Shown: positions 1 through 64,000 of the stretch, piece after piece
How positions within the stretch are numbered: position 1 is the stretch's first letter
How the letters are laid out: each line of letters starts with the position of its first letter
From: Knoellia flava TL1
GTDB taxonomy: Bacteria; Actinomycetota; Actinomycetes; Actinomycetales; Dermatophilaceae
DNA: 64,000 nt
Assembly: GCF_000768675.1 (NCBI RefSeq)
Contig: NZ_AVPI01000005.1
Span: forward strand, 1 to 64,000
Direction: 5' to 3'
The notes under the pieces: model-generated
Told to the model about the DNA's origin: nothing
The model's database searches: none
The model's input: the letters and a program-made list of their open reading frames with translations, nothing else
Position numbers and translations under genes: made by a program

Positions 1-2139
1 AGCGCCCGGGACCGTCAGGCCGCTGCCGCCGTGGCCGCCGACGCGCGGCGGCTCGCGGCGGCGTCCCTCAACGAGACCGCCCTCGACCTCGCGCTGCTCC
101 AGGCCGTCGAGGCGGTGCGCACCGAGCCGGGCCCGCAGACCCACGGCGCCCTGCTCACGCTCCTGTCCCGCACCCCTGACCTCATGTCGCTCCGACGCGC
201 GGAGACGCCCTTCCTGCGCGGTGACGCCAGCGCCGACGGGCGGCTCGTCGTCGTGGCGGAGTACGACCCCCGCGTCGTCGCCCTGGACGCCGTCACGGGT
301 GAGGAGCGGTGGACCCGCGGCGTCCCCGAGGACGGTCACGTCTGGAGTGTCGACGGCGGGGCCCGGGGCTTCCTCGTCTCGTCGGCCGACGACAGGGGTG
401 GGTCTCGGGTCCAGCTCTGGGACGAGCGCACGGGCGATGACGTGTGGACCGTGGACGCCTCCGACCTCGCACCTCTCGTGGGCAGTGAGGGGGACGCGCT
501 GCCCGGTGAGGCGGTCTGGGACGCTCGCGGGCGCGCGGTCCTGCTCACCTCGACCCACGTCGTCACCGTCTCTGCCGCGGGACGGCCGCTGCAGGCGAGC
601 CCGCTCGCATCGTCCCCGTCGGGACAGCTCGAGGCCTGGCCCGACGGACGGATCAGCTATGAGGCCGAGCCGGACGTCGGCGTCGTCCTCGACCCCGACC
701 GGCCGGGATCGGCGACGACTCCCGGCTTCGCGATCTTCTCGGTCTCACCCGACGGCTCGCTCGTCGTCACCGCCGACCGCTCGCAGGTGGGCATGGTCCG
801 CGTCCGGCTGCGCGACGCCCGGACGATGCAGCCCGTGGGGGAGGAGATGACCGTCGAGTCCTTCGACGGACCGGTGGACTGGGCGGCCGACAGCCGCACC
901 CTCGTGCTCGCGGCAGGCCAGGCGGTGCAGCAGCGGGACCGTGGCGGGCGCCTGCTGCGCGAGCTGTCCGGGGCGCACTCCGGTCAGGTCATGGCCGTCA
1001 TGGTGGCCGGTGCCGCCCGCGACGTCGTGTGGGCGCCCGGCCGCGACGGGCTGCTCTCGGCCTGGGACCTGTCCGGGAGACGGGGCCTCCTCGCCAGCAG
1101 CCCGCTCGAGCGAGGGCCGCACAACGGGCAGGCCGACGCGTCGGGGACGACCGGTGCGGGGACCCTGTTCGCGTCGGTGACCGAGAACACCGCGGTGCTG
1201 CTCGACGCACGCTCGGGGAAGGCACGTGCGCTCGACCTCCCGGCCGGGTGCCGATGTCAGGTCTCGTCGATGGCGATGAGCCCGGGCGGTGACCTCGCCG
1301 TGGGTTCGGTCATGGGCTTCTCGGCGACCGCAGGCGACGACCTGCGCTCCGGCGCCCTCGTGGTCTGGGAGACGGACGACGGCACTCTCCGTCACGACGT
1401 CACCCTCCCGTGGGACGCGATCTCCGCCGTCGTGACACCCGACGGACGGCAGGCCGTCGTCAACGGGGCGGGCGGTGTCGCGGTGGTCGACCTCGTCTCG
1501 GGACGCGTCGTCGGTCCGGTGCTCGACCTGCCCGACCTCCCGCTGTCGGGCCGGGGACGGACGGTCGCGCTCGGGCCGGACGGACGCAGGGCCGGTGTGC
1601 TGCGTAGCGGTGAGGTGGTCGTCGTCGACACCGAGACCCGCCGGGTGGTGGCGCGGCGGGCCCTCGGCAGCGCGTCCGCGACTGCCGGTGACGGGACTGC
1701 CATCGCGTGGGCGGGTGACGACCTCGTCGTCGCGGGGCTCGACGGGCGCCTGAGCTTCGTCGACGGAGCGTCGCTGGAACCGCTGGCCCCGCCACGGGAG
1801 GCGGCAGCGGGCTTCGTCGTCGACCTCGTGGTCGTCGGGGACACGCTCGCCAGCCTGGGGTCCGACGGCGACCTGCGACTGTGGGACGTCGGCACGTGGG
1901 AGCCCGTCGGGCTGGCCCTGACCAAGGAGAACGCGTGGGGCTTCCTGGCCGCGGGCGACGGTGCGGTCGAGGCCTGGCTCGAAGGACCGACGGAGAACGC
2001 CCCGGGCCGGCTCCGCACGCTGCCGCTGAGCCCGTCGGTGTGGCGGGACCGCGCGTGCGCCCTCGTCTCGCGCGAGCTCAGCGCGGACGAGTGGAGCGTC
2101 ATCCACCCCGGCAGGGAGCGGCGTCCCACGTGCGCGTGA
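1..2139 (+). CDS. C-terminal part of a WD40/beta-propeller protein (nSTAND-type), 5' end outside window
   Basis: The frame is open from the first base, so this is the last 712 residues of a larger protein. It opens with an alanine/arginine-rich helix (around residues 1-45, with the pattern RRLAAASLNETALDLALLQA). That helix typically links an N-terminal P-loop or SARP/STAND module to C-terminal WD40 repeats in actinobacterial regulators. The rest is a run of short beta-strand units of the type VVWETDDGTL and LRLWDVGTW, fitting two beta-propellers. The C-terminus (WRDRACALVSRELSADEW) is typical of these WD40 proteins. Such proteins are thought to act as ATPase switches or scaffolds; the partner is unknown. 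The missing N-terminus would decide whether it carries a kinase, SARP or STAND domain. Confidence 0.8.
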   Translation, partial: SARDRQAAAAVAADARRLAAASLNETALDLALLQAVEAVRTEPGPQTHGALLTLLSRTPDLMSLRRAETPFLRGDASADGRLVVVAEYDPRVVALDAVTGEERWTRGVPEDGHVWSVDGGARGFLVSSADDRGGSRVQLWDERTGDDVWTVDASDLAPLVGSEGDALPGEAVWDARGRAVLLTSTHVVTVSAAGRPLQASPLASSPSGQLEAWPDGRISYEAEPDVGVVLDPDRPGSATTPGFAIFSVSPDGSLVVTADRSQVGMVRVRLRDARTMQPVGEEMTVESFDGPVDWAADSRTLVLAAGQAVQQRDRGGRLLRELSGAHSGQVMAVMVAGAARDVVWAPGRDGLLSAWDLSGRRGLLASSPLERGPHNGQADASGTTGAGTLFASVTENTAVLLDARSGKARALDLPAGCRCQVSSMAMSPGGDLAVGSVMGFSATAGDDLRSGALVVWETDDGTLRHDVTLPWDAISAVVTPDGRQAVVNGAGGVAVVDLVSGRVVGPVLDLPDLPLSGRGRTVALGPDGRRAGVLRSGEVVVVDTETRRVVARRALGSASATAGDGTAIAWAGDDLVVAGLDGRLSFVDGASLEPLAPPREAAAGFVVDLVVVGDTLASLGSDGDLRLWDVGTWEPVGLALTKENAWGFLAAGDGAVEAWLEGPTENAPGRLRTLPLSPSVWRDRACALVSRELSADEWSVIHPGRERRPTCA

Positions 2140-2260
2140 CTCCGTGACCCGACCGTGAGCGGTCCGCGACCGGTGTCCGGGAGCGTCGTGCCACCGGGGG
2201 AGCCCGGGTGGGACCCACAGGTCACGTCGGTGACCGGCCCACGAGCAGAAGGAGCACGAC

Positions 2261-2597: not shown

Positions 2598-3542
2598 GTG
2601 ACCGACTCCGCCGTCCACCCGCTCGTCGACCTGCACTGCCACGGGGCCCTCGGGCACGAGTTCGGGCGGGACACCGGCGGCTCACGCGAGGCCGCGGCCC
2701 ACCACCGCGCGGCCGGGGTCGGACGCCTCGTCGGCTCGCTCGTCTCGGGCACGCCGGACACCCTCGTCGGCCAGGTGGCCACGCTCGCGTCACTCGTCGC
2801 CTCGGGCGAGCTCGCCGGCATCCACCTCGAGGGGCCGTTCCTCTCCGAGGAGCGCCGCGGCGCCCACGACCCGTCGGTCCTCACCAACCCCGACCTCTCC
2901 CTCGTCGAGTCGCTCGTCGCCACCTGTGCCGAGGCGGGGGCCCCGGACGCCCTGGTCCAGTGGACCTTCGCGCCCGAGCGCCCCGGCTCGGGTGAGCTGG
3001 TCGCGGCACTCGCGCGACACGGCATACTCCCGGCGGTCGGTCACACCGACGCGTCGGCCGACGTGGTCTCGCGAACCCTCGTGGAGATCGCGGACGCGTG
3101 TGGTCGCCCTCCGCTCGTCACCCACCTCTTCAACGGTATGCCGGCCTTCCACCACCGCTCCGGCGGTCCGGTCGCGGCGGCGCTCGCCTCGGCGGCGCGG
3201 GGTGACTGCATCGTCGAGCTCATCGCCGACGGGGTGCATGTCGCGCCCGAGGTCGTGCGGATGGTCTTCGAGACCGTCGGGCCCGAACGGGTCGCGCTCG
3301 TCTCCGACGCCATGGCGGCGACGGGGCTGGGCGACGGCGCCTACACGATCGGCACGCTCGACGTCGAGGTCGCGGGCGGGGTGGCGCGACTCGCTGACGG
3401 CGGTTCGGGCCGCGGCTCGATCGCCGGGTCGACGTCGACGCTGGCCGACTGCGTGCGGTGGGCGGTCGAGGTGGCCGGTGTGCCCGAGGCCGACGTCCTC
3501 ACCGCCGCGACGACCACCCCGGCGTCCGTCCTCTCCCCCTGA
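2598..3542 (+). CDS. nagA: NagA-like N-acetylglucosamine-6-phosphate deacetylase, short form
   Basis: NagA deacetylates GlcNAc-6-phosphate in the cytoplasm during amino-sugar recycling. Visible motifs are the metal-site DLHCHG at residues 11-16, HLEGPF around 76-81, VGHTDA near 150, THLFNGMPAFHHR near 175 and SDAMAATG near 237, all in the amidohydrolase order. The protein is 314 residues, against about 380 for the usual family. It starts almost directly at the first metal motif, so the N-terminal beta-sandwich strands are missing. It stops right after TTTPASVLSP, before the usual C-terminal strands. A large palindrome (3593-3651) begins 50 bp past the stop. It may be a compact variant or one shortened by rearrangement. 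The catalytic barrel looks complete. Confidence 0.75.
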   Translation: MTDSAVHPLVDLHCHGALGHEFGRDTGGSREAAAHHRAAGVGRLVGSLVSGTPDTLVGQVATLASLVASGELAGIHLEGPFLSEERRGAHDPSVLTNPDLSLVESLVATCAEAGAPDALVQWTFAPERPGSGELVAALARHGILPAVGHTDASADVVSRTLVEIADACGRPPLVTHLFNGMPAFHHRSGGPVAAALASAARGDCIVELIADGVHVAPEVVRMVFETVGPERVALVSDAMAATGLGDGAYTIGTLDVEVAGGVARLADGGSGRGSIAGSTSTLADCVRWAVEVAGVPEADVLTAATTTPASVLSP

Positions 3543-4379: not shown

Positions 4380-5954
4380 TCACCGCAACAACGCGCGGAG
4401 CGATGAAATGGTGTCGGCCTCCGCGGCGGGCTTGGCGTCGTCGCCGACCCGGTAGCGCTTGACCCGGGCGAACCGCAGCGCCACGCCACCGGGGTAGCGA
4501 GAGCTCCGCTGCACGCCGTCGATGGCGATCTCCACGACGACCTCGGGCCGCATCATGAGCGCCCAGCCGTCATCGTCGACGCCGAACTCCGGGAAGGTCT
4601 CGGTCTGCCACCGCAGCAGCTCGTCGGTGAGCCCCTTGAAGGTCTTGCCCACCATGACGAACCCGCCGGCCGGACCGAACTCGCCCTCCGGGTCGCGAGC
4701 GCCGAGGTGGAGGTTCGACAGCCAGCCCTTGCGGCGCCCGGACCCGCGCTCGACCCCGAGGACGACGAGGTCGTAGGTGTGCACCGGCTTGACCTTGACC
4801 CAGTGCTTGCCGCGCCGCCCGGCCGCGTAGGTCGAGTCGACGGCCTTGACCATGACCCCCTCGTGCCCCGCCGCGAGCGCGTCACGCGAGACGCGGTCGG
4901 CGACGGCCGGGTCGGTCGTCACCTCACCCTCGATCCGGTATGCCGGCGCGATCCGTTCGAGGACGTCGAGCCTCTCGCGCAGCGGCCGGTCGATGAGGTC
5001 GTCGCCGTCGAGGTGGAGGACGTCGAAGAACCGTGGGGCGAGCACACGCGCCAGGACCTCGCCGGCGCCGCTCTCGTCGGTGCCGAAGCGGCTCATCGTG
5101 TCCTGGAACGGGCGCGGGGCGCCGTCGTCGTCGAGCATGAGCGTCTCGCCGTCGAGGATGACCGACTCGACGGGCAACGACAGCGCGACGTCGACGATCT
5201 CGGGCACGCGCGACGTGATGTCGGCGAGCGAGCGGGTGTGGACCCTGACCTCGTCGCCGCTGCGGTGCACCTGGATCCGCGCGCCGTCGAGCTTGTGCTC
5301 GACCGACGCCTCGCCGGTGACCTCGAGCGCGGCGGCGACATCGGACGCGGTCGAGGCGAGCATCGGCTGCACGGGGGTGAGGACGGCGAGCCCGACGTCG
5401 GCGACGGCCTCGGGGTCGGTGAGCGCGAGGCGCACCGTCCCGGCGAGCGACCCGCTGAGCATGACCGCGCGCCGCACGTCCGCCAGGGGCAGGTCGACGG
5501 CCTTGGCGAGCCCGTCGGTGAGGACGCCCTCGAGCGCACCGGTGCGCATCTCGCCGGTCATCGCCCGGGCGAGGTGCTCCTGCTCGTCGGCGGTCGCGCG
5601 CTCGAAGAGCCCGGTGAGAGTGTCGTTGCGGGCGCCGACTGACCCGGCGCCGCCGAGCCCGGCGATCTCGTCGAGGACGGCATCGACGTCACCGACGGTG
5701 AGTGAGGACTCGGTCGCGGGCGCTGCCGCCTTCCGCGCGGCGGCCACGGTGCGGTAGCCGAGCCCGATGGAGCCCTGGCGCAGCCGGCCGAGGAGCAGCC
5801 CGACGGCGGCCTCGGCCTCGTCGGGCGCGAGGTCGCGCAGGAGCGCACCGAGGAGCTCGGTCTTGGCCGTGCGCGACCGGGTCGCCGCGAGCGCCGAGGC
5901 GGTCTCGACGAGGCGGGCGAACGGCATACCTCCGCTGGGGGGAGGGGTGCTCAC
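4380..5954 (-). CDS. lig: ATP-dependent DNA ligase
   Basis: The protein has about 524 residues, the size of actinobacterial stand-alone ATP-dependent ligases (LigB type). An N-terminal helical DNA-binding domain is followed by the adenylation motif EHKLDGARIQVHR, whose lysine takes the AMP. Further nucleotidyltransferase motifs are VILDGETLM, EGVMVKAVD and HWVKVKP, and an OB-fold region follows. I placed the start at GTG 5954, which overlaps the upstream VOC stop as GTGA and suggests translational coupling. The alternative ATG at 5927 gives MPFARLV, the usual family N-terminus, but its GGAGG lies only 1 nt away. The role is nick sealing in repair. Confidence 0.85.
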   Translation of the reverse strand: MSTPPPSGGMPFARLVETASALAATRSRTAKTELLGALLRDLAPDEAEAAVGLLLGRLRQGSIGLGYRTVAAARKAAAPATESSLTVGDVDAVLDEIAGLGGAGSVGARNDTLTGLFERATADEQEHLARAMTGEMRTGALEGVLTDGLAKAVDLPLADVRRAVMLSGSLAGTVRLALTDPEAVADVGLAVLTPVQPMLASTASDVAAALEVTGEASVEHKLDGARIQVHRSGDEVRVHTRSLADITSRVPEIVDVALSLPVESVILDGETLMLDDDGAPRPFQDTMSRFGTDESGAGEVLARVLAPRFFDVLHLDGDDLIDRPLRERLDVLERIAPAYRIEGEVTTDPAVADRVSRDALAAGHEGVMVKAVDSTYAAGRRGKHWVKVKPVHTYDLVVLGVERGSGRRKGWLSNLHLGARDPEGEFGPAGGFVMVGKTFKGLTDELLRWQTETFPEFGVDDDGWALMMRPEVVVEIAIDGVQRSSRYPGGVALRFARVKRYRVGDDAKPAAEADTISSLRALLR

Positions 5955-6502: not shown

Positions 6503-8536
6503 TCAGCGGCCGTGGCGGCGGTAGGCGTGGATCACCGACGGACGGGGCTGGCCGTCGCCGCGGTAGGGGAACTGCGAGACGACGTTGTCGGGGCTCGCGT
6601 TGCCGACCTCGCCCGGGTGCTGCACGGCGACGAGGACCGAGTCCGGGCCGAGGATGACCGGGCCGCACGTCTCGGCACCGACCGGCACCGAGAGGAACTG
6701 CTGCAGCCTCCCCTTCTCCGCACCCTCGAGCGGCATGACGTAGAGCGCGTCGCAGTGGTTGAGCGTCCCCGGCATCCCGTCGGTGGAGATCCACAGGTTG
6801 CCTGCGGCGTCGAAGGCGAGGTTGTCGGGGCAGCTGATCGGGCTGACCTCGCTCTTGTCGTAGCCGTTGAAGTAGGTCTGGGGGTCGCTCGGGTTGCCCG
6901 CGACGAGCACGATCTTCCACGTGAAGGTCAGCGCGCCGTGGTCGCCCCCGGCCTCGGTGAACTCCGTGACGTGGCCGTGCTTGTTGCTCGCGCGGGGGTT
7001 CGCCTCGTCGATCTGCGCCGGCGTGCGCGCGCTGTTGTTCGTCATCGCGGCGTAGATCCGGCCGTTGACCGGGTTGGGCTGGACGTCCTCGGGGCGGTCC
7101 ATCTTCGTCGGGCCGACTCTGTCGGCGGCGAGGCGAGTCCAGATCAGCACCTCCTCGACGCTGTAGCCGGGGACCTTCGAGACGCCGTCGACGACGAGAG
7201 GGATCCACGCGCCGGTGCCGTCGTACTCGCCGTCGGCGGCGCCGTCACCGTCGAGGCGCGCGACGTAGAGGTCGCCCTCGGAGAGCAGGCCCATGTTGTG
7301 CCGCTTGTCGCCCTCGCGGTAGGTCCCCTTCGAGAGGAACTTGTAGATGTAGTCGAACCGCTCGTCGTCACCCATGTATGCCGCGACGCGGCCGTCCGCG
7401 GTCAGCGTCACCGTCGCGCCCTCGTGCTTGAAGCGCCCGAGCGCCGTGTGCTTGACCGGCGTCGACGTCGGGTCCTGCGGGTCGACCTCGACGATCCAGC
7501 CGAAGCGGTTGACCTCGTTGGGCTCCTTCGTCACCGAGAAGCGGTCCTGGATGCGCTCCCAGCCGCGCCCACCGGACGTGATGCCGTAGCGCTTGAGCCT
7601 GCCCTGCGGGTCCGGGGCGCCGGTGGCGTTGAAGTACTGGTTGAAGTTCTCCTCGCCCGAGAGGTAGGTGCCCCACGGCGTCTCGCCACCGGCGCAGTTG
7701 TTGAGCGTGCCGAGGATGCGCTCGCCGCGCGGGTCGTCGGACGTGCGGAGGTGGACCGACCCGGCGGCCGGCCCGTCGACGGCGAACGGGGTGTCGGTGT
7801 GGATGCGCCGGTTGCGCGCGCCGCCCTGGACCCAGCGCCACGGGCTGTTCGCGTTGCGGCGGGCCACCTCGGTGACGGTGATGCCGTGGGCGGCCTGGAC
7901 GATCTCGAGCTGCTCGTCGGTGAGGTCGGCCGAGGAGCCGACGCCGCGGAACATCAGCTCGTCGTTGGTGTACTCGTTGTTGAAGGCGAGGAGGCCCTTG
8001 TGGGCGCCGTTGTCGCCCGGCCCGCCCTGCATGAACTGGACGTAGTCGCAGTTGTAGCCCGCCTGCTCGCGCTGCGCGGCGGGCGTCTGGTTGTCGAAGT
8101 CGAAGGCCGGCGTGCCGGCGAAGAGCGGGTCGCCCCACGAGATGACCGGCGCCCAGGCGAAGCCCTCGGGCACCTTGACGGCGTCGACGTTCGCCGGGGT
8201 CGGCGCGATGCCGGTGAAGCCGAGGGCGCTGCTGCCGGCACGACCGGCGCCTGCCGCACCGGCCCCAGCCCCGGTGGCAGGCGACGAGGGCGCAGCGGCC
8301 GCGGACGGCATACTCCACGCCGTGAGGCCGACGAGCGCGGCGCCCGCGCTCCCGGCGCGCAACGCGGCCCGGCGCGAGACGCCGGCGGCGACGAGGTCGC
8401 CGAAGTAGGCGTTGTCGGAGGTGTTGGGCACGTCCTGGTCACAGGCGTTGCCGCAGCGGTACTGGCACGTCATCGAGCTGCGGCCACCCCCGTGCGAACG
8501 GGTGAACAGCGGGAGCAGGCGGTCGGGAGTCGTCAC
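6503..8536 (-). CDS. phoX: PhoX family alkaline phosphatase (Tat-exported)
   Basis: PhoX is a secreted Fe/Ca-dependent phosphomonoesterase that releases phosphate outside the cell. The 677-residue protein starts at GTG 8536, with GAAGGA about 6 nt upstream. The N-terminus carries the long PhoX leader (MTCQYRCGNACD, then NTSDNAYFGD) followed by a twin-arginine signal, SRRAALR. The iron-ligand region LNNCAGGETPWGTYLSGEEN, typical of PhoX/DUF839, is present, as is NLAFDAAGNLWISTD near the C-terminus. A PHO box and a TAGCGT -10 box precede the gene. It ends near a large palindrome. This is a confident family call. Confidence 0.93.
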   Translation of the reverse strand: MTTPDRLLPLFTRSHGGGRSSMTCQYRCGNACDQDVPNTSDNAYFGDLVAAGVSRRAALRAGSAGAALVGLTAWSMPSAAAAPSSPATGAGAGAAGAGRAGSSALGFTGIAPTPANVDAVKVPEGFAWAPVISWGDPLFAGTPAFDFDNQTPAAQREQAGYNCDYVQFMQGGPGDNGAHKGLLAFNNEYTNDELMFRGVGSSADLTDEQLEIVQAAHGITVTEVARRNANSPWRWVQGGARNRRIHTDTPFAVDGPAAGSVHLRTSDDPRGERILGTLNNCAGGETPWGTYLSGEENFNQYFNATGAPDPQGRLKRYGITSGGRGWERIQDRFSVTKEPNEVNRFGWIVEVDPQDPTSTPVKHTALGRFKHEGATVTLTADGRVAAYMGDDERFDYIYKFLSKGTYREGDKRHNMGLLSEGDLYVARLDGDGAADGEYDGTGAWIPLVVDGVSKVPGYSVEEVLIWTRLAADRVGPTKMDRPEDVQPNPVNGRIYAAMTNNSARTPAQIDEANPRASNKHGHVTEFTEAGGDHGALTFTWKIVLVAGNPSDPQTYFNGYDKSEVSPISCPDNLAFDAAGNLWISTDGMPGTLNHCDALYVMPLEGAEKGRLQQFLSVPVGAETCGPVILGPDSVLVAVQHPGEVGNASPDNVVSQFPYRGDGQPRPSVIHAYRRHGR

Positions 8537-8671: not shown

Positions 8672-9040
8672 GTGACACCGGATCCGGACCCGGTCGGCGA
8701 CTTCTTCGACGGCCACCCCGAGGGCGCGGCCGTCGCCGCAGCGGTGGTCGCCGCGGTCGACGAGCTCGGTCCGCACACCGTCCGGGTGACGCGGAGCCAG
8801 GTGGCGTTCCGGCGGCGGGTGGCGTTCGCATGGCTGTGGCGGCCAGCGCAGTACGTGCGCAGCGAGGTGCCCGCCGTGCTGTCGATCGGACTCGCCACGC
8901 GCGACACCTCACCGCGGTGGAAGGAGGTCGTGCAGCCGAGCCCCGGTCGGTGGATGCACCACCTCGAGCTCAGCCGGCCCGAGGAGGTCGACGACGACGT
9001 GCGCGACTGGTTGCTGACGGCATACGACGCCGCGGGATAG
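8672..9040 (+). CDS. DUF5655 domain protein
   Basis: This 122-residue protein has the DUF5655 pattern: VRVTRSQVAFRRRVAFAWLW, then SIGLATRDTSPRWKEVV and PGRWMHHLEL. The domain function is not established; it is often found alone in actinobacteria as a small cytoplasmic protein. The start is GTG 8672, directly after GGGGAG. It diverges from phoX, so the PHO box region at 8626-8643 could affect both genes. Confidence 0.75.
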   Translation: MTPDPDPVGDFFDGHPEGAAVAAAVVAAVDELGPHTVRVTRSQVAFRRRVAFAWLWRPAQYVRSEVPAVLSIGLATRDTSPRWKEVVQPSPGRWMHHLELSRPEEVDDDVRDWLLTAYDAAG

Positions 9041-9077: not shown

Positions 9078-9881
9078 ATGTACCTCGAGAACGTCGTCGT
9101 CGACGCCCGCGACCCGCGGCGCCTCGGCCGCTTCTGGGAGTCGCTGCTCGGGTGCGCAACCCTCACCGACGAGACCGCCTCCTACGAGACCCGGCTCACC
9201 GTGCCCGACGGGCCCCCGCTCGACCTCTGCTTCGAGCTCGTGGACGAGCCGCCGCGCCCGAGCCCGCGGCTGCACCTCGAGGTCTACGGCGGGGAGGTGC
9301 AGGAGCAGGCCGCCGTCGTCGAGCGCGCCCTCTCCCTCGGCGCGACGCACCTCGACATCGGCCAGCGCGACGTGCCGTGGGTGGTCCTCGCCGACCCGGA
9401 GGGCAACCCGTTCTGCGTCATGGAAGCGCGGCCGGAGTATGCCGTGTCGGGGCCGCTGTCGTCGCTGCCACTCGACAGCGCCGACGTCGAGCGTGACCTC
9501 GCCTTCTGGTCCGAGCTCTCCGGCTGGGTGCCGGTCGACAGTGCGATGCCCGGGGCGCTGCGCCACGCCAGCGGTCGCGGCCCGCTGCTCGAGCTGTGTC
9601 CCGAGCCGCGACCCAAGGAGCCCGGCCGCAAGAACCGCGTGCACCTCGACATCCGGCTCGAGCCGGGCGACGACGCGGCTGCGACGGCCCAGCGCGTCGT
9701 CGACCTCGGCGGGGCGCACTTCGAGCACGACTGGGGCGAGCTGCCCTGGCAGGTGATGGCCGACCCGTCGGGCAACGAGCTGTGCCTCCTGCCCGCTCGA
9801 TCGGAGGACGCTCGACCGGAGGACACGGCGAGCTCCGAGGACTCCTCGGACGACTCAGCGGACGGGCCTCAGGACGCCTGA
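9078..9881 (+). CDS. Two-domain VOC/glyoxalase-like protein
   Basis: The protein has 267 residues with two tandem VOC halves. The first is residues 1-115 (MYLENVVVDARDPRRLGRFW to GNPFCVM). The second is about 130-245 (SADVERDLAFWSELSGW to GNELCLLPA). The second half keeps HLDI and GNELC, which in VOC enzymes lie near the metal site. An acidic, serine-rich tail of about 22 residues follows. That tail overlaps the end of the convergent HPrK-like gene by 27 bp. The substrate is unknown. Confidence 0.8.
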   Translation: MYLENVVVDARDPRRLGRFWESLLGCATLTDETASYETRLTVPDGPPLDLCFELVDEPPRPSPRLHLEVYGGEVQEQAAVVERALSLGATHLDIGQRDVPWVVLADPEGNPFCVMEARPEYAVSGPLSSLPLDSADVERDLAFWSELSGWVPVDSAMPGALRHASGRGPLLELCPEPRPKEPGRKNRVHLDIRLEPGDDAAATAQRVVDLGGAHFEHDWGELPWQVMADPSGNELCLLPARSEDARPEDTASSEDSSDDSADGPQDA

Positions 9882-11018
9882 GTCGAGGAGTGCGGCCACG
9901 CCCTCGGCAACGATCGCCGTGGCGTCGGGGTGGGGGCCGAGCGCGTCGATGACCGCCTCGACTGCCTCGGTCCTCGTGAGCGGCTGCTCCGCGCGGTGCC
10001 AGATGGCCTCGCCGACGGGGCCGAGCCGGACGGGCCGGTCGCCGATGAGCAGCAGGGTGCCGTCCTCGCCGTGCACGACGTCGCGCCAGGGCCGGCGCAC
10101 GAGCCGCTCGCCGACGAGGTCGTCGACGCCGTCGGCCGCGACGTCCGCCGCGGGGGCCGGGTCGGGCGGTGGTGTCGTGCTCCACGGTGCTCGTGGTGCC
10201 GCGCTCGTCCATGCGCCGTCGGGGGCGAGGAGGTCGGCGACGAGGTCGACGCAGTCGCCGATCTCGCTGTAGCGCAGCACATACGGCCCGCCCGAGCGGC
10301 TCGCGGCCTCGGCGAGGCGCTGGAGCGGGCGCTCGACCATCGGCAGCGACGAGCTCTCGGGGATGACAGCGACGAGCGCGTCGATGAGCGGGAGGGTGGT
10401 GAGCTCCGGGACCTCGCGTGCCGGGTCGCGTTCCAGGATCACGAGCGCCTCGAGGTATGCCGTGTCGGCCTCGCGCAGACCGAGCTCGGCCGGGCTGAAC
10501 TCGGCCTTGTCCCAGGGGGATCCGTTCGTTGTGACGACCGAGATGGGCTTGCGGTAGGGCGAGACCCGGCGGTCGTCCTCGAGGACGACGGTCTCGTCGG
10601 AGAGGTAGCCGAAGTGGCGGCCGAGCTCGCGCGACGCGGTCGACTTGCCCGTCCCTGACGGGCCGACGAGGGCCACCGCGCGTGGACCGAGGCTGAGCCC
10701 TGCGGCGTGGAGCATGAGGGCCGAGCCACGACGGCGGCCGATAGAGGCGAGCGTGAGGGCGCGCGAGACGGCATACGGGATCGTCGCGGGAGGCTCGCTC
10801 CCGGAGAGGCGGTGGCCTGCCGAGCCGCGTGGGACGTCTCCGACGTGGAAGATCTCGATGTCGGAGGAGCCGTCGGGGTCGACGGTGCGGACGTCGGGGC
10901 CGCGGCTGCGGGCGCCCTGCCACAGCTCGGTGAGGCGCGTGGCCACGTCGGGGTCGGCGCCGTCGAGGCGCAGCGCCCACCGGACGCCGAAGGCGTCGAT
11001 GACGAGGTCGTCGCTCAC
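9855..11018 (-). CDS. HPr-kinase-like P-loop protein with C-terminal PqqD-like domain
   Basis: The protein has 387 residues. The middle holds a P-loop, GPSGTGKST (about residues 119-127), followed by SDETVVLEDD, the layout seen in HPr kinase/phosphorylase-like proteins. The last 85 residues (VRLGPVGEAIWHRAE, then VAEGVAALLDSGVLRP) look like a PqqD-type peptide-binding fold. Similar pairs occur near RiPP clusters, but no precursor peptide or maturase is visible here. The start is GTG 11018, with GAGGA upstream. The 3' end overlaps the VOC gene convergently. The substrate (protein, sugar or peptide) is unknown. Confidence 0.65.
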   Translation of the reverse strand: MSDDLVIDAFGVRWALRLDGADPDVATRLTELWQGARSRGPDVRTVDPDGSSDIEIFHVGDVPRGSAGHRLSGSEPPATIPYAVSRALTLASIGRRRGSALMLHAAGLSLGPRAVALVGPSGTGKSTASRELGRHFGYLSDETVVLEDDRRVSPYRKPISVVTTNGSPWDKAEFSPAELGLREADTAYLEALVILERDPAREVPELTTLPLIDALVAVIPESSSLPMVERPLQRLAEAASRSGGPYVLRYSEIGDCVDLVADLLAPDGAWTSAAPRAPWSTTPPPDPAPAADVAADGVDDLVGERLVRRPWRDVVHGEDGTLLLIGDRPVRLGPVGEAIWHRAEQPLTRTEAVEAVIDALGPHPDATAIVAEGVAALLDSGVLRPVR

Positions 11019-16894: not shown

Positions 16895-17005
16895 CTTGCG
16901 TCCGGCACTGTGGTGGGTATGCCGTCAGGTTGCCGGACGCAAGCGGGCACTGCTCCCTTGTGTCCGGCACTGTGGTGGGTATGCCGTCAGGTTGCCGGAC
17001 GTAAG
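16895..17005. repeat. Two tandem copies of the 62-bp palindromic repeat
   Basis: Copy 1 is at 16895-16943 and copy 2 at 16957-17005. Each 49-bp copy has arms CTTGCGTCCGGCA and TGCCGGACGCAAG (copy 2 with small changes). The shared core, TGTGGTGGGTATGCCG, includes the GTATGCCG 8-mer. A 13-nt spacer gives a period of exactly 62 bp. They follow phoD and precede the rhodanese promoter. Confidence 0.85.
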
Positions 17006-20099: not shown

Positions 20100-20131
20100 A
20101 CGGCATACGGCGTTATTCGGATGTATGCCGT
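20100..20131. terminator. Inverted pair of the GTATGCCG motif, possible terminator
   Basis: ACGGCATAC (20100-20108) and GTATGCCGT (20123-20131) form a 9-bp stem with a 14-nt loop, 20 bp after the membrane-protein stop. Paired uptake sequences in Neisseria serve as terminators in the same way. Confidence 0.5.
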
Positions 20132-30649: not shown

Positions 30650-32230
<1,581 letters not shown>

Positions 32231-36980: not shown

Positions 36981-37091
36981 CGACGTCCCGACGTAGCCGC
37001 CGCAACACCTCCCGTATGCCGTGTGGCCGGGCCGGTGCCCGCGGCCGGGTTCGGCGCGCCAAAGTCGGGTGACGGTGTCGGGGCGGACCTC

Positions 37092-41559: not shown

Positions 41560-41594
41560 CCGCCACGACCAAGGCTCTCGGGTATGCCGTGTGG

Positions 41595-48760: not shown

Positions 48761-48831
48761 AGACGCAAGCCCGCGTATGCCGTGTGGTCCGACCCCTTCC
48801 GGACCGCACGGCACGCGTGCTCGGGGGCAGA

Positions 48832-51340: not shown

Positions 51341-51460
51341 GGGACCCGATTGTCCAAGCCCGTATGCCGTCCCGTCACCTGAGATTCCGAGGGCGCCGGC
51401 CGCCTTGACCGTCGGGGACAATGAGACGAACACCGACCGCAGCCTCGACAAGGAGTAGCC

Positions 51461-52784: not shown

Positions 52785-53969
52785 ATGGCCGCTGCTCAGC
52801 ACCCACTGGACCTCTTCGGGATCGACGGGCTGATCTCGGCCGACGACCGCGACATGCGTGACACCGTCCGCGCCTTCCTCGACGCCGAGGTCCGACCGCA
52901 CGTGGGCGGCTGGTTCGAGGCCGGCTCCGTGCCCGTCAAGGAGATCGCTCCGACGTTCGGCGAGCTCGGCCTGCTCGGCATGCACCTCGAGGGCTACGGC
53001 TGCGCTGGGACGAGCGCGACGGCATACGGGCTGGCCTGTGCCGAGCTGGAGGCGGTCGACTCGGGCATCCGGAGTCTCGTGAGCGTCCAGGGGTCGCTCG
53101 CGATGTTCGCGATCCACCGCTTCGGGAGCGAGGAGCAGAAGCACGAGTGGCTCCCGCGGATGGCGGCGGGACAGGCCATCGGGTGCTTCGGCCTCACCGA
53201 GCCCGACTTCGGTTCCAACCCCGCCGGGATGCGGACCCGGGCCAGGCGCGACGGTGACGACTGGGTCCTCGATGGCAGCAAGATGTGGATCACCAACGGG
53301 TCGGTCGCCGACGTCGCCGTCGTCTGGGCGCGCACCGACGACAGCGACGGCTCGACCGTTCGCGGCTTCGTCGTGCCGACGGACACCCCGGGCTTCTCGG
53401 CACCAGAGATCAAGGGCAAGCTCTCGCTGCGCGCGTCGATCACCTCCGAGCTCGTCCTCGAGGGCCTTCGGCTTCCGGCCTCGGCGATGCTGCCCGAGGC
53501 GCGTGGTCTGTCCGGGCCGCTGTCGTGCCTCTCGGAGGCGCGGTTCGGCATCGTCTTCGGCGCGCTGGGCGCCGCCCGCGACTGCCTCGAGGTGGCGATC
53601 GCCTACGCGCAGGAGCGCGAGATCTTCGACAAGCCGCTCGCGGGCTACCAGATCACCCAGACCAAGCTCGCCGACATGACCCTCGAGCTCGGCAAGGGGA
53701 TGCTGCTCGCGCTCCACCTCGGGGCGCTCAAGGATGCGGGCAACCTGCGCCCCGAGCAGGTCAGCCTCGGCAAGCTCAACTCCTGCCGCGAGGCGATCGC
53801 CATCGCCCGCGAGTGCCGGACGATCCTCGGCGCCAACGGGATCGCGCTCGAGTACTCGCCGATGCGCCACGCCAACAACCTCGAGTCCGTCCTCACCTAC
53901 GAGGGCACGTCCGAGGTCCACCAGCTCGTGATCGGCCAGGCCCTGACGGGGCACCCGGCGTTCCGGTGA
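52785..53969 (+). CDS. Acyl-CoA dehydrogenase, glutaryl-CoA dehydrogenase-like
   Basis: The 394-residue protein has the acyl-CoA dehydrogenase N- and middle domains (CFGLTEPDFGSNPAGM, WVLDGSKMWITNGSVADV) and a C-terminal helical domain with LTYEGTSEVHQLVIGQALTG. It carries the catalytic glutamate in YEGT and, in LEYSPMRHANNLE, an arginine typical of glutaryl-CoA-type enzymes. It oxidises acyl-CoA with FAD and an electron-transfer flavoprotein. The exact substrate is inferred only from these motifs. Confidence 0.87.
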   Translation: MAAAQHPLDLFGIDGLISADDRDMRDTVRAFLDAEVRPHVGGWFEAGSVPVKEIAPTFGELGLLGMHLEGYGCAGTSATAYGLACAELEAVDSGIRSLVSVQGSLAMFAIHRFGSEEQKHEWLPRMAAGQAIGCFGLTEPDFGSNPAGMRTRARRDGDDWVLDGSKMWITNGSVADVAVVWARTDDSDGSTVRGFVVPTDTPGFSAPEIKGKLSLRASITSELVLEGLRLPASAMLPEARGLSGPLSCLSEARFGIVFGALGAARDCLEVAIAYAQEREIFDKPLAGYQITQTKLADMTLELGKGMLLALHLGALKDAGNLRPEQVSLGKLNSCREAIAIARECRTILGANGIALEYSPMRHANNLESVLTYEGTSEVHQLVIGQALTGHPAFR

Positions 53970-56051: not shown

Positions 56052-56645
56052 TCACCCCTGCGAGACCCGCGCCTCCAGCGAGAGGAGGAACTCTTTGGCA
56101 GCCGGCCCACCGGCATACCCACCGACGCGACCACCCACGGAACCGCCGGCCGGGAGCACCCGGTGGCACGGCACGAAGACGCAGACCGGGTTGGCGCCGA
56201 GCGCGGTCCCCACGGCTCGTGACGCACGCGGCCGCGAGATCGCACCGGCGAGCTCGCCGTAGGTCGTCGACGCCCCGTAGCCCACCCGCGACGCGAGTCC
56301 GGTGAGCACCGAACGCTGGAAGTCGCTCGCGAGGACGAGGTCGACCGGCACCGAGAAACCGGTCGCCTTCCCGGACAGGTATGCCGTGAGCTCGCGTCGC
56401 ACGGTGTCGAGCGGCTTCGCGTGGCGCAGGACTCGCGGCGAGACGAGGTCGGCGAGGCGCTGGAGCCACGCGGACTCGTCCTCGTCGCCGGGGACGTAGG
56501 CGGACGTGACGAGCCGGCCGTCCTCGCGCACCGCGAGGAGGAGCCGACCCACGGGGGTGTCCTCGACGGCATACGAGACATCGGTCTCCGGCAGGACCGG
56601 CCGACGCACGGTGGGCGCGAAGCCCTCGAAGGGGTGGGCGGTCAT
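56052..56645 (-). CDS. ogt: Methylated-DNA-protein cysteine methyltransferase
   Basis: The 197-residue protein repairs O6-alkylguanine by transferring the alkyl group to its own Cys160 (VFVPCHRV). It also carries VGYGASTTYGELAGAISRPRASRAVGTALGANP, the DNA-binding HTH. The N-terminal part follows the Ogt/AdaB length. Its ATG overlaps the sigma-factor stop (ATGA), so the two genes form a unit. Confidence 0.92.
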   Translation of the reverse strand: MTAHPFEGFAPTVRRPVLPETDVSYAVEDTPVGRLLLAVREDGRLVTSAYVPGDEDESAWLQRLADLVSPRVLRHAKPLDTVRRELTAYLSGKATGFSVPVDLVLASDFQRSVLTGLASRVGYGASTTYGELAGAISRPRASRAVGTALGANPVCVFVPCHRVLPAGGSVGGRVGGYAGGPAAKEFLLSLEARVSQG

Positions 56646-57121: not shown

Positions 57122-57197
57122 GATGGTTGAACGGTATGCCGTGCCGTCCTGTGAGTCGCTGCCCCCGCGGAGGTGCGCGCGCTGCCACGATGGGGCC

Positions 57198-58524: not shown

Positions 58525-58697
58525 GCAACGTCCGGCGAGATGCCGGCGTACCTACCACAGGTGCGGACGCAACGGCAGGCGAGGTGTTTGCGTCCGGCGA
58601 GTTGACGGCATACCCACCACAGGTGCGGACGCAAGCAGCAGTGCGGTGGCAACGTCCGGCGAGATGCCGGCATACCCACCACAGTCGCGGACGCAAG
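58525..58697. repeat. Three tandem copies of the 62-bp palindromic repeat, reverse orientation
   Basis: Copies are at 58525-58573, 58587-58635 and 58649-58697, each 49 bp, separated by 13-nt spacers (exact 62-bp period). They are the reverse form of the 16895 repeats. Copies 2 and 3 contain CGGCATACCCACCACA. They fill most of the 298-bp gap between the HATPase and DUF5926 genes. A further GTATGCCG follows at about 58705. Confidence 0.85.
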
Positions 58698-58784
58698 CAA
58701 CTTGGTATGCCGGCCGAGGTCGGCGTGCGTGCGCCTTGCGTGCCGTTGTGGTGACGCCTGCGAGGGGTGGGTCGCCGCCACCAT

Positions 58785-60628: not shown

Positions 60629-62171
60629 CGCCAGCGAGGCCGGACCCGACGGCCGCCTCGCCCTCGGCCCGGCCGCGACCGCTCGCGCCGAGCGCGCCCG
60701 CGCGGTCCTGCTTGTCGCATCGTTCGCGCTGCTCCTGCTCGTCGGCCTCGCCCTGCCGCACGCCGCCGCGCCCGACCTCGGCCCGCGTGGCTGGGCCCCG
60801 GGCACCCTCCTCCCGGTCACGCTGGGACCGGCGGCCGTCACGGCGGCGATGTGGACGGCATACGTGCTCGGTGGTCTGGGGGTGCTCCTCGGCGTGCTCG
60901 GGCGCGGGGCGGAGCTGCCCCGTCCGGTCGTCGCGGTCCTCGCCGTCGGCGCGGCGCTCACGGCGCCGTTCGGGTCCGGTGACCACCTCAGCTACGCCGC
61001 CTACGGCCGGATCCTCGCGCTCGGCGACAACCCGTGGCTCGAGTCGCCGGTCGGCTGGCGCGGCGGCACCGACCCGGTCGTCTCCGCCGTCGAGCCGCCG
61101 TGGACCGAGGAGCCCAGCGTCTACGGACCGTTCGCGACGATCGTCCAGGGGCTCACCTCGCTCGGCGGTGGTGACAACCTGCGCGAGACGGTCTGGCTGT
61201 GGCAGCTCGTCACCGTCGCGTCCTGGCTCGCCATCCGCTGGTGCCTGCGCCGCGTGCTGCCCGGCCGCGAGGCGCGCATCGACGCGCTGTGGACCGCCAA
61301 CCCCCTCGTCTTCTCGGTCGGCGTCCTCGGCTCCCACGTCGACCTCCTCGCCACGGCGCTCGCCGTCGCCGCGGTCTGGGCCGCCCACCGGTATGCCGGC
61401 CTCGGTGGTGCCGCGCTCGCCGGCGCCCTCGCGGCGCTCGCCCTCTCGTCGAAGTTCACGTATGCCGTCGTGCTCCTCGCGCTCGTCGTCGCCTTCTCGT
61501 CGCGCCGGGTCGCCCGCTCCGCCGTCCTGATCGCGGTGGCGGGCGTCGTCGCCGGCGGGCTGCACCTGTGGGCCGGGCCGAACGTCTACGACCAGATCGG
61601 CCGGTCGGCGCGGGCGGTCTCGCTCGCCACGCCGTGGCGCACGGTCTTCGAGTGGCTGGGCCGTGACGTCGAGGCCAGGAGCGCCGTGTCGATGCTCGCG
61701 GCGGTCACGGCGGTCGTCTTCGCGCTCTGCCTGCTGCGCCTCGTGCGCTCCGCCCCGCACGCTGCCCTTGCGTCCGGCAATGTGGTGCCCAGATCGACCA
61801 CTTTGCCGGACGCAAGCGAGGGAGGACGCGCACTCACGGCGGTCGCGGTGCTCACCGGCGCCTACGCGCTCGCCGCGCCCTACTCGCTGCCGTGGTACGA
61901 CGTCGTCGTCTGGGCGGCCCTCCCGGCGGCACTGCCCGGCGTCGCCGACCTCGTCCTGCTCGCCCGACTGTGGGTGATGTCGATGGCCTACACCCCGGGC
62001 CGGGTGCTCGGCATGACCCCCGGCGTCGAGGACGTGACGATGACGGCCCGCACGACGGTCGCGCCGGTCCTGATCCTCGCGACGTGGCTGTGGCTCGTCA
62101 CGAGCGCCGTGCGCGCCGGGTCCCGGCGACGGCCCGCAGGTCCTCCTCGAGGTTCCGCACCACGACGCTGA
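60609..62171 (+). CDS. GT-C polyprenol-phosphate mannosyltransferase, MptB-like
   Basis: This roughly 520-residue multi-pass protein has about ten or more hydrophobic segments. FGSGDHLSYAAYGRILALGDNPWLES fits the GT-C catalytic loop of MptB-type mannosyltransferases, which use polyprenol-phospho-mannose in lipomannan-type envelope glycans. LGSHVDLLATALAVAAV is the matching second motif. A 50-bp palindromic repeat (61767-61816) is inserted in frame between two helices, adding about 17 residues without breaking the frame. The start is a GTG near 60600-60609, coupled to the GT2 gene. The 3' end overlaps the convergent next gene by 74 bp. Confidence 0.82.
   Translation: MSHTAADASEAGPDGRLALGPAATARAERARAVLLVASFALLLLVGLALPHAAAPDLGPRGWAPGTLLPVTLGPAAVTAAMWTAYVLGGLGVLLGVLGRGAELPRPVVAVLAVGAALTAPFGSGDHLSYAAYGRILALGDNPWLESPVGWRGGTDPVVSAVEPPWTEEPSVYGPFATIVQGLTSLGGGDNLRETVWLWQLVTVASWLAIRWCLRRVLPGREARIDALWTANPLVFSVGVLGSHVDLLATALAVAAVWAAHRYAGLGGAALAGALAALALSSKFTYAVVLLALVVAFSSRRVARSAVLIAVAGVVAGGLHLWAGPNVYDQIGRSARAVSLATPWRTVFEWLGRDVEARSAVSMLAAVTAVVFALCLLRLVRSAPHAALASGNVVPRSTTLPDASEGGRALTAVAVLTGAYALAAPYSLPWYDVVVWAALPAALPGVADLVLLARLWVMSMAYTPGRVLGMTPGVEDVTMTARTTVAPVLILATWLWLVTSAVRAGSRRRPAGPPRGSAPRR
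61767..61816. repeat. Palindromic repeat inserted in frame inside the mannosyltransferase gene
   Basis: CTTGCGTCCGGCAA (61767-61780) pairs perfectly with TTGCCGGACGCAAG (61803-61816). Inner GTGGT and ACCAC extend the stem. It is translated as LASGNVVPRSTTLPDASE within the mannosyltransferase, in a hydrophilic loop. Confidence 0.85.
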
Positions 62172-64000
62172 CGATGAGCGGCACCGCGACGGTCGCGCCT
62201 ACCGCGGGGATGGCGGTGCCGGAGTCGTTGATGAGGAAGCCGATCGTCAGGGTGATGACGAGGGCGATGAGACCGGCGCGCAGGGTCGGCGCCTTGTCGA
62301 AGGACTTGCCGAGACCCTTCGAGCCCCACGACGTGGGTCGCGCGAGGACATAGATGACGAAGAGCAGCGCGGCCGGCACGAGCAGGGTGAGGGGGGCGTT
62401 GCCGAGGAGGATGCTCCAGTTCTGCTCGGCCTTGCGGACGACGATGTCGAGGGCGTTGCCGTCGATGATGGCCTGGATGAAGCGGCCGAGGTGGCTGCGG
62501 TCGTCGGGCTCGCGCAGCCAGTCGAGGAACGCGACCCCGAAGAAGAGCGCGGCCGAGCCCAGACCGATGAGCAGGACCCGCTTCCACGTCATCCGCAGTC
62601 CGAGGATCGAGAGGACGAGGTAGGCGATGCCCGGGATGAAGGCGGGCGGGCCGCCACCATCGGCGCCCCAGAAGGGCGCTCCGTCAACGATGACCGTGAA
62701 GACGCCGATGCACAGGACGACGATCGCCGCGATCCGCTCGCGGTGGTGGGCGACGAGGTAGCTCGACACCGCCGTCGCGAGGAGGATCGCCGAGGTGGCG
62801 AAGAGCGCGAAGGTCACGTTGCCCATGCCGTAGAACCGCCCGGCGACGACGGGCTGGAGGCCCATGAGCGAGGACTGCTGGAGTCGTGACCCGGTCATGA
62901 CGTCGCCGGCGAGCACCGCCATCGTCACCGCGGCGACGAAGGCGAGCGGCCCGAGGGCCGAGCGTCCCCACGGACCGCGCAGGCCGGCATACGCGATGAG
63001 GGCGACGAAGAGGCCCACGGCGGCGACGATCGAGATCATCGGGACGGGGAAGCGCCACCACGGCAGGAGGTTGGCGAGGAAGGTCGACGCGGGCACCGAC
63101 GCCGCGGCGACGGCGATGACGCGGACGATGCCGAGCACCTTGCGGCGGGTGTCGGGGCCGCCGATCTTGCCCTTCCACACGAGGAGGACGAGGAGGTAGA
63201 TGACGAGCTGCCCGTAGGCGAAGGTGTTGAAGAACGGTGGGACGAGGCTGTGCACCTCGTGGCTCGCGAGGTCGTAGTCGACGAGCCCCTGGAGGCGGTC
63301 GGCAGCGCGGCGCTCGGAGTTGTCGGGTGCCTGCTCGCTCGTCATCGTCGTGCCGCCGAGGCCGCCCGGGGCGGTGATCCCGGTGAGCGACATGACCGTC
63401 ACGGGGATGTCCTGGGCCTGGACGAGGCCCGGCTGACGGGTCGACGGGGCGTTGAGCCGTCCCGGTCCATAGTGCGGACCCCGGGCGACGGCGAGGCGGA
63501 GGCGCTCGGTGACGCCGGCGTCGGAGAGGCTCGCGACGATGAAGTCGGCACCCCCGGGGGCGGCGTCGATGACCTGTCCGATCCGCTCGTCGACCGCCTT
63601 GACCTGCTCCTCGCGGGAGCCGCCGGCCGGCTCCTCGCCCTCGGCAATGTCGTCGGGGTCGCGCACGCTGCCGACGTCGACGATCGTCAGCGGGCACGTG
63701 TTCATGTCGACGAGGAGCGTGTCGGGCGACCACGGGGAGTAGCGGTCGGCGGTGCCCTCGGGCATCGCGGCGGCGATGGCGGCGCCGGGACCGACCGGCT
63801 TGATGCAGACGTCGGACTTCGCGGCGGCCTCGCCGAGCAGACCGAGCCTGCTGTCGAACTTGCGCGACGCGGCAGCCTGCTCGAACGTCGACCAGCCCGG
63901 CACGACACCGCCGCTGGGCTCCTCGATGGGGGCGCAGGGACGCAGCTGGGCGCGGCCCTCGCCGTCGCGCGGGGCGGCGGCGCGGTTGGCGGCGGAGAGC
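62098..64000 (-). CDS. Large membrane protein, alkaline-phosphatase-superfamily-like N-terminal part, 5' end outside window
   Basis: The gene is open to the end of the window, so it is a C-terminal portion of at least 634 residues. The N-terminal half is soluble (GPHYGPGRLNAPSTRQPGLVQAQDIPVTVMSL), with a pattern like secreted phosphodiesterase or sulfatase-type proteins, but no full metal site is visible. The C-terminal half has about 11 hydrophobic segments, with no motif naming a transporter. Similar large actinobacterial proteins are hypothetical. It ends convergently, overlapping the mannosyltransferase by 74 bp. Confidence 0.6.
   Translation of the reverse strand, partial: LSAANRAAAPRDGEGRAQLRPCAPIEEPSGGVVPGWSTFEQAAASRKFDSRLGLLGEAAAKSDVCIKPVGPGAAIAAAMPEGTADRYSPWSPDTLLVDMNTCPLTIVDVGSVRDPDDIAEGEEPAGGSREEQVKAVDERIGQVIDAAPGGADFIVASLSDAGVTERLRLAVARGPHYGPGRLNAPSTRQPGLVQAQDIPVTVMSLTGITAPGGLGGTTMTSEQAPDNSERRAADRLQGLVDYDLASHEVHSLVPPFFNTFAYGQLVIYLLVLLVWKGKIGGPDTRRKVLGIVRVIAVAAASVPASTFLANLLPWWRFPVPMISIVAAVGLFVALIAYAGLRGPWGRSALGPLAFVAAVTMAVLAGDVMTGSRLQQSSLMGLQPVVAGRFYGMGNVTFALFATSAILLATAVSSYLVAHHRERIAAIVVLCIGVFTVIVDGAPFWGADGGGPPAFIPGIAYLVLSILGLRMTWKRVLLIGLGSAALFFGVAFLDWLREPDDRSHLGRFIQAIIDGNALDIVVRKAEQNWSILLGNAPLTLLVPAALLFVIYVLARPTSWGSKGLGKSFDKAPTLRAGLIALVITLTIGFLINDSGTAIPAVGATVAVPLIVSVVVRNLEEDLRAVAGTRRARRS

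Follow-up and report, generated by a model that had tools for sequence, protein, structure and literature searches.

Short words iterated through bacterial genomes far above chance fall into three classes, Chi, uptake sequences and HIP1 (highly iterated palindrome 1; PMC4390886, drawn on here, as are the other articles cited, for its accessible part). In the Neisseriaceae, the DNA uptake sequence (DUS) occurs in dialects that differ by one base, with one genome carrying two (PMC3630211), and competence in Micrococcus luteus involves an Flp/Tad pilus, ComEA and ComEC (PMC6370729). Uptake sequences with dialects are by now well documented in Neisseriaceae and in Pasteurellaceae, where they are named uptake signal sequences (USS). 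To our knowledge, no self-recognition code of this sort has been described before in monoderm bacteria. Here, a 64,000-nucleotide stretch of Knoellia flava TL1 (contig NZ_AVPI01000005.1, positions 1 to 64,000 of the forward strand; guanine plus cytosine (GC) content 72.8%), called the window throughout, is analysed for the dispersed octamer GTATGCCG, which reads CGGCATAC where it lies on the minus strand and which appears to mark self-DNA throughout the genomes of Knoellia and its relatives, most probably as a DNA uptake sequence. None of the titles listed in a literature search for the octamer itself looks related; equally, titles and abstract starts gave no report of an actinobacterial or Gram-positive uptake-sequence system in a search that lay outside most subscription journals and preprints.

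Abundance, exactness and conservation of the octamer

The window holds 30 copies of GTATGCCG and 28 of CGGCATAC, 58 in all, where an order-3 Markov model expects 3.25. A sequence-only reading of the window had arrived by eye at about these two counts, with a GC content of about 72%, which comes close, and a chance expectation of about 2, which was somewhat low; the positions it quoted are exact or deviate by 1-2 bases (10769 in place of 10770, 61460 in place of 61458). GTATGCCG ranks second among window octamers with a z-score of 28.3, behind TATGCCGT (z 31.5). Both this octamer and the highest-ranking 9-mer, GTATGCCGT (36 observed against 0.5 expected), overlap GTATGCCG. The copies, and two inverted pairs that they form, are located as follows.

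3136..3143, plus strand, exact GTATGCCG match
4938..4945, plus strand, exact GTATGCCG match
7376..7383, plus strand, exact GTATGCCG match
9437..9444, plus strand, exact GTATGCCG match
10455..10462, plus strand, exact GTATGCCG match
13721..13728, plus strand, exact GTATGCCG match
15464..15471, plus strand, exact GTATGCCG match
16917..16924, plus strand, exact GTATGCCG match
16979..16986, plus strand, exact GTATGCCG match
20123..20130, plus strand, exact GTATGCCG match
20956..20963, plus strand, exact GTATGCCG match
21457..21464, plus strand, exact GTATGCCG match
22903..22910, plus strand, exact GTATGCCG match
25652..25659, plus strand, exact GTATGCCG match
27997..28004, plus strand, exact GTATGCCG match
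29581..29588, plus strand, exact GTATGCCG match
30449..30456, plus strand, exact GTATGCCG match
31733..31740, plus strand, exact GTATGCCG match
34233..34240, plus strand, exact GTATGCCG match
37014..37021, plus strand, exact GTATGCCG match
39356..39363, plus strand, exact GTATGCCG match
41582..41589, plus strand, exact GTATGCCG match
45814..45821, plus strand, exact GTATGCCG match
48775..48782, plus strand, exact GTATGCCG match
51362..51369, plus strand, exact GTATGCCG match
56379..56386, plus strand, exact GTATGCCG match
57134..57141, plus strand, exact GTATGCCG match
58705..58712, plus strand, exact GTATGCCG match
61391..61398, plus strand, exact GTATGCCG match
61460..61467, plus strand, exact GTATGCCG match
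3020..3027, minus strand, exact GTATGCCG match
5922..5929, minus strand, exact GTATGCCG match
8306..8313, minus strand, exact GTATGCCG match
9018..9025, minus strand, exact GTATGCCG match
10769..10776, minus strand, exact GTATGCCG match
13465..13472, minus strand, exact GTATGCCG match
15749..15756, minus strand, exact GTATGCCG match
17819..17826, minus strand, exact GTATGCCG match
20101..20108, minus strand, exact GTATGCCG match
21622..21629, minus strand, exact GTATGCCG match
23127..23134, minus strand, exact GTATGCCG match
24655..24662, minus strand, exact GTATGCCG match
29278..29285, minus strand, exact GTATGCCG match
29756..29763, minus strand, exact GTATGCCG match
33338..33345, minus strand, exact GTATGCCG match
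34813..34820, minus strand, exact GTATGCCG match
39622..39629, minus strand, exact GTATGCCG match
43652..43659, minus strand, exact GTATGCCG match
45543..45550, minus strand, exact GTATGCCG match
47024..47031, minus strand, exact GTATGCCG match
50885..50892, minus strand, exact GTATGCCG match
53020..53027, minus strand, exact GTATGCCG match
56111..56118, minus strand, exact GTATGCCG match
56567..56574, minus strand, exact GTATGCCG match
58606..58613, minus strand, exact GTATGCCG match
58668..58675, minus strand, exact GTATGCCG match
60856..60863, minus strand, exact GTATGCCG match
62985..62992, minus strand, exact GTATGCCG match
20101..20130, inverted GTATGCCG pair, the motif forming a hairpin stem, intergenic by predicted genes, fold -22.8 kcal/mol
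58668..58712, inverted GTATGCCG pair, intergenic by predicted genes

The excess extends to the whole genome, a 3.56 Mb draft in 94 contigs, in which 1,268 and 1,273 copies in the two orientations (2,541 in all) stand against 94 (44 + 50) of the reversed word as control. At 0.71 per kb the density falls in the range of DUS and USS, so that the enrichment, the near-equal orientations and the uptake-sequence-like density noticed in the window hold genome-wide; the refuting outcome that the sequence-only reading had set for itself did not come about. In the 654 kb of the genome that were sampled, 518 exact copies were counted against 5.6 expected under an order-4 model with the word masked, a 92-fold excess, and the 24 one-mismatch words summed to 369 against 374 expected. 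With its one-mismatch words at chance the octamer behaves in an all-or-nothing manner, without a detectable halo of decayed copies. The flanks show weak preferences only, position 9 tending to T (59%) and position 10 to C or G, with A disfavoured immediately before and after the word.

Conservation was assessed in five pairwise comparisons of the genome's own ComEC and Tad loci with those of other Knoellia at 78-80% identity, the own sites being reused between comparisons. The word is intact at 31 of 39 aligned sites, against 19-23% of all aligned octamers, and the aligned copies stand as conserved islands within diverged flanks. The longest motif-poor stretch sampled covers 27.5 kb of contig C1 (C1:30272-57738, L032/L033) at 65-67% GC; it holds one copy of GTATGCCG and encodes an integrase of insertion-sequence type and an OmpA-domain gene, and the evidence on foreign DNA comes from this one island.

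Placement and strand-specific spacing

Genes were predicted for this analysis with a codon model, a crude procedure that yielded 599 genes and 86% coding sequence. Outside these genes lie 150 of the 518 copies against 73 expected (P 2e-18), with 10 more at gene edges. Among genic copies, 173 of 200 in sense orientation take the frame xxG TAT GCC G, and 122 of 158 in antisense orientation read xCG GCA TAC, a further 27 reading xxC GGC ATA C. Because genic copies favour these frames, 173 of the 335 TAT codons and 27 of the 38 ATA codons in predicted genes reside within the motif. The earlier proposal that the motif forces rare codons is borne out for these two, with GCA involved to a small part only (122 of 1249); equally, its placement of copies in several frames and between genes was correct, as all six frames and intergenic sites are occupied. 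One might regard the word as a by-product of mutation or codon usage, or as a dispersed mobile repeat, since the two commonest genic frames (xxG TAT GCC G, xCG GCA TAC) are synonymous with GTACGCCG, the word of some relatives treated below. However, the concentration of half of all TAT and most ATA codons inside the motif, the use of all six frames and of intergenic sites, the weak flank preferences, the persistence of sites beyond that of their flanks and the size of the excess over the order-4 model refute this explanation, to which we give next to no credence.

Close pairs (less than 60 bp apart) are inverted in 18 of 24 cases (P 0.02), 13 of the 18 being intergenic. The inverted pair at 20101/20123, already pointed out from the sequence, is real, and its hairpin is more stable than shuffled sequences (mean -15.95 kcal/mol, standard deviation 3.2; z -2.1). 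Extragenic excess and inverted pairs have been described likewise for USS terminators (PMC5217627). Beside these pairs, a second dispersed repeat occurs in the window, GCGGACGCAAG together with the partly palindromic TTGCGTCCGCAA (45452-45462, 58625-58635, 58687-58697), of which the copy at 58687 sits between two GTATGCCG copies; for 12-mers of this family, 442 kb yield 14-16 occurrences where 0.01-0.06 would be expected.

Among the 20-kb stretches sampled along the genome's own contigs C1 and C2 and at nine places distributed over the complete chromosome of another Knoellia, G003, none is strongly skewed, the largest departures being 10 to 5 and 2 to 6. This absence of skew speaks against a replication or segregation signal of the type of the FtsK-orienting polar sequences (KOPS), which require replichore skew. 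A signal of that type or a nucleoid-protein site would explain an abundant, dispersed word; around 2,500 non-palindromic sites are, however, many for known nucleoid anchors, and we regard both versions as very improbable. In the 51 GTATGCCG-rich genomes taken together, the totals for the two orientations differ less than binomial sampling predicts (chi-square 28.8 on 51; lower-tail P 0.005), and the reversed word shows no such agreement in the same test (chi-square 57.0).

Neighbouring copies alternate between the strands, with 359 opposite-strand against 150 same-strand neighbours (351 against 147 in a first sample) and 40 against 17 in the window. The same-strand fraction of 0.29 compares with a mean of 0.52 (standard deviation 0.04) for 264 octamers of similar abundance, the next-lowest non-overlapping octamer reaching 0.43. 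Between 100 and 1,000 bp, same-strand copies fall to 0.2-0.5 of the expected frequency and opposite-strand copies remain around it (0.6-1.5 across bins); pairs 60-1,000 bp apart number 14 same-strand against 85 opposite within one gene and 66 against 133 elsewhere. The alternation repeats in other Knoellia loci (68 same against 112 opposite), 18 loci pooled from further GTATGCCG genera show it too (87 against 161), and the same-strand repulsion is strong in Knoellia, G015 and G033.

We take this to mean that, in Knoellia at least, the signal acts on a single strand at a time. As the tags form a separate, spaced-out series on each Knoellia strand, they are probably recognised or processed in a strand-polar manner. 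A polar reader of this kind might belong to transformation, at a step that takes place on the entering single strand or from one side, or it might be a Chi-like enzyme, that is, a helicase-nuclease which sets out from a double-strand break and, on reading GTATGCCG on one strand, would give up degradation for recombination. Since such reading is polar, each strand would need its own series and a nearby second site would be redundant, so that a polar signal predicts repulsion within a strand, observed here up to about 1 kb, and near-independence between the strands; an octamer is also of the size of Chi. On the other side, Chi of Escherichia coli is usually co-oriented with replication, the nine chromosomal stretches show no replichore bias, and GTATGCCG is several times as dense as Chi in E. 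coli.

Dialects among relatives

The genome, a Knoellia of the Micrococcales (NCBI Intrasporangiaceae), was compared within a family sample (f1) of 89 genomes, G000-G088, that also takes in, under inferred names as throughout the family, Knoellia remsis of the same genus (G002), Janibacter melonis (G044), Dermacoccus abyssi (G017), Intrasporangium flavum (G035), Flexivirga endophytica (G076) and Phycicoccus elongatus (G074). GTATGCCG is dense in 51 of the 89 (939-4,724 copies), so that its enrichment is, as the sequence-only reading required of a functional signal, common to related genomes; the other 38 hold 7-293 copies. When 20 genomes poor in GTATGCCG were scanned for alternative words (17 usable 20-kb stretches and 3 short contigs), GTACGCCG came out as top octamer in G047 and G055 and GGATGCCG in G033, and in G030, G031, G075 and G009 the dialect was missed as top word of the stretch and found by whole-genome counts. 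Such counts place GTACGCCG at 1,125-3,903 copies in eight of the 38 (G030, G031, G047, G055, G061, G075, G083, G087), the weakest, G061, having 0.31 per kb where high-GC genomes of family f5 reach about 0.3 per kb, and GGATGCCG at 1,336-3,949 copies in four (G009, G024, G033, G071). G026 with 752 copies of GTACGCCG is borderline and was placed among the motif-free genomes. Two dialects at once occur in G051 (GTATGCCG 1,217, GGATGCCG 2,195) and G085 (1,189 and 2,099), and one genus is split between G032 with GTATGCCG and G075 with GTACGCCG. Beside these words, the first 20 kb of the G030 stretch L078 are rich in repeated octamers unrelated to the motif (e.g. TCGAACTG, 28 against 1.2 expected), probably a repetitive gene.

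High numbers of GGATGCCG also occur outside this family, in family f19 (G108, G124, G139), probably the Microbacteriaceae as judged from the nearest named loci. A class-wide draw of 246 genomes shows it at 0.41-1.3 per kb in 10 of 11 f19 genomes and, beyond f1 and f19, in no genome above about 0.24 per kb. Among 80 named loci, GGATGCCG is the top octamer in Pseudolysinimonas kribbensis, in metagenome-assembled genomes (MAGs) of Microbacteriaceae and Tetrasphaera and in a Micrococcales locus, and GTACGCCG in a Frankiaceae MAG. Further candidate dialects, in small numbers, are GAATGCCG (L151, 13 against 0.66) and GTATGCGG (L163, 7 against 0.22). Possibly related words were also noticed in Propioniciclava (GGACGCCG) and Kribbella (CGACGTAC/GTACGTCG/GTACGACG; loci L203, L204, L217). 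Placed on a 64-row ComEC tree, the six dialect states require 16 changes, compared with 28 after shuffling, and the clade beside Knoellia combines a dual-dialect Tetrasphaera, a GGATGCCG Nostocoides and the motif-free Phycicoccus jejuensis; dialect calls from 20-kb loci are rough, as in one case two identical rows were labelled differently, and the tree, which places Knoellia koreensis outside the main Knoellia clade, may depart from the species tree.

The dialects bear in particular on a role akin to that of HIP1, in which the motif would be kept for chromosome maintenance, methylation or strand discrimination in mismatch repair instead of uptake. Very high density, an exact octamer and strong conservation do recall HIP1 (PMC4390886), and a strand-specific nicking or methylation site would equally give two independent strand lattices. 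HIP1 is, however, palindromic with internal methylase sites; GTATGCCG is not palindromic, the three dialects have no common internal palindrome of at least 4 bases, and frequent loss and one-base switching between close genera would be odd for a maintenance site. This role is therefore judged unlikely, slightly more so than a Chi-like one.

Machinery, favoured reading and known systems

ComEA, with SLBB and HhH domains, and ComEC are both encoded in the genome, together with a CpaF-type ATPase and TadE/G-like pilus proteins, so that the competence genes that had been suggested as a check are present, as they are in motif-free relatives. ComEA is a standard protein in motif-bearing and motif-lacking species alike. 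PilM of the type IVa pilus matches in 4 of the 89 family genomes, none of them Knoellia and none among G000-G008, and a receptor on such a pilus was dropped as a candidate. In the genome's own Tad locus on contig C45, two predicted genes with signal-like N-termini (L093:11109-12598) have no match in 19 other Tad loci and sit within a 5.2-kb gap free of the motif.

Recombination enzymes weigh on the Chi-like alternative. RecC has no match in the own genome or in G001-G008, which argues against RecBCD-Chi there, and within f1 it is found in 13 of 63 motif-bearing against 18 of 26 motif-free genomes (Fisher P 2e-5, kinship ignored), the reverse of what RecBCD-Chi would lead one to expect. Tag loss and possession of RecBCD may thus go together, an observation of its own. 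PDDEXK_1 proteins occur in 145 of 147 genomes, with many of the matches listed in open frames of about 1,050-1,100 amino acids, the size of AdnAB-type nucleases, which they may be, in favour of a Chi-like reader. Long PDDEXK_1 proteins are, however, present in motif-free genera too, and three second-family genomes rich in GGATGCCG have weaker best matches (2e-18 to 2e-32); as AdnAB does not separate motif-bearing from motif-free genomes, it was dropped as a motif-linked enzyme. On balance, a Chi-like role appears rather unlikely. The earlier suggestions, an uptake or recombination signal, a nucleoid-protein site or a modification site, are thus supported in part. The uptake side is consistent with density, parity, conservation and dialects, and RecBCD-Chi is weakened by the missing RecC and the missing replichore bias.

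The best reading of GTATGCCG, in our estimate with moderate confidence, would be a strand-polar self-DNA uptake signal of natural transformation. Its density, strand parity, extragenic excess, inverted pairs, conservation and, above all, one-base dialects fit an uptake-type signal, as does its near-absence from the single foreign island. The cells would be competent by a machine of the Micrococcus luteus type, in which an Flp/Tad pilus captures DNA, ComEA holds the captured DNA and ComEC passes a single strand inward. A protein of this pathway, acting as receptor, would demand the exact GTATGCCG, or GTACGCCG or GGATGCCG in other genera, and thereby favour DNA of the same dialect, and repeated uptake and recombination of tagged DNA might spread, keep and repair the tags. 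A more far-reaching version, which we put forward only tentatively as it is clearly the less probable, holds that two actinobacterial families share a strand-polar self-recognition code, G-N-A-Y-G-C-C-G, that a factor unrelated to pilins of the ComP type would read without tolerance of mismatches on one strand, such as the single strand entering the cell, with dialect groups exchanging genes preferentially.

Several findings weigh against this uptake reading. An excess of one-mismatch forms over chance is usual, if not defining, for DUS and USS, and turnover predicts decaying copies, yet such forms of GTATGCCG are not above chance. A receptor that binds duplex DNA is not expected to cause same-strand repulsion. 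The repulsion is, furthermore, weak or absent in G067 (GTATGCCG), G047 (GTACGCCG) and G124 (GGATGCCG), and the idea that it is universal was dropped. No protein cluster around the main Tad locus tracks the motif or its dialect (20 genomes, crude gene calls), fragmented motif-bearing drafts G036, G040 and G041 gave no ComEC match, and 26 of the 89 family genomes carry none of GTATGCCG, GTACGCCG and GGATGCCG. Of 147 genomes, 139 have ComEC and 144 have TadE, and a CpaF-type ATPase exceeds the cut-off in 33 of 34 tried, motif-free ones included; the machine therefore does not predict the motif, presence of the Tad pilus was dropped as a predictor, and either specificity or competence was lost in another way in the motif-free relatives or the link of the motif is not to uptake. 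By title, a literature search brought up no report that looks relevant to competence in Knoellia. In Haemophilus influenzae, the analysis of PMC1939737 saw uptake unaffected by orientation.

The more far-reaching version, if true, would be the first such code in monoderms known to us and the first with a spacing that marks each strand separately. An uptake sequence that arose independently in high-GC monoderm soil bacteria would show that mate recognition of this form evolves more widely, would lead one to expect natural transformation in many genera where none is known, and would offer a genetic tool, DNA tagged with the right word. The strand-specific spacing opens a new way of testing how motifs of this sort are read. 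As close relatives variously carry this word, a different one or none, the loss and switching of dialects can also be tested directly.

Among known systems, M. luteus is matched by ComEA, ComEC and a Tad locus, known here from their genes, and differs in that the accessible part of its description mentions no uptake sequence (PMC6370729). HIP1 of cyanobacteria (GCGATCGC) is likewise an exact octamer iterated through a lineage and rare in exceptional members (PMC4390886), but is a palindrome tied to orphan methylases, whereas GTATGCCG and its dialects are no palindromes. Chi of RecBCD/AddAB is an over-represented, polar 8-base word to which strand-specific spacing would fit; the lack of a RecC match in Knoellia, the absence of replication-strand bias, the dialects and the losses between sister genera set GTATGCCG apart. 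The USS of Pasteurellaceae has a similar density (about 1,300 copies), but word and host are unrelated and its orientation was without effect on uptake there (PMC1939737), in contrast to the strand-specific spacing of GTATGCCG. The DUS of Neisseriaceae, compared here at the level of sequence, differs in that GTATGCCG resides in monoderm actinobacteria, is exact with one-mismatch words at chance and is subject to same-strand repulsion in Knoellia, where the lack of a match to a PilM-type pilus leaves no known place for a relative of ComP, the type IV minor pilin that serves as sequence-specific receptor in the known case. The consensus GTATGCCGTC has ATGCCGTC in common with the 12-base Neisseria DUS, by coincidence or convergence. 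With the DUS, GTATGCCG equally shares thousands of short non-palindromic copies, strand parity, one-base dialects and genomes with two dialects (PMC3630211).

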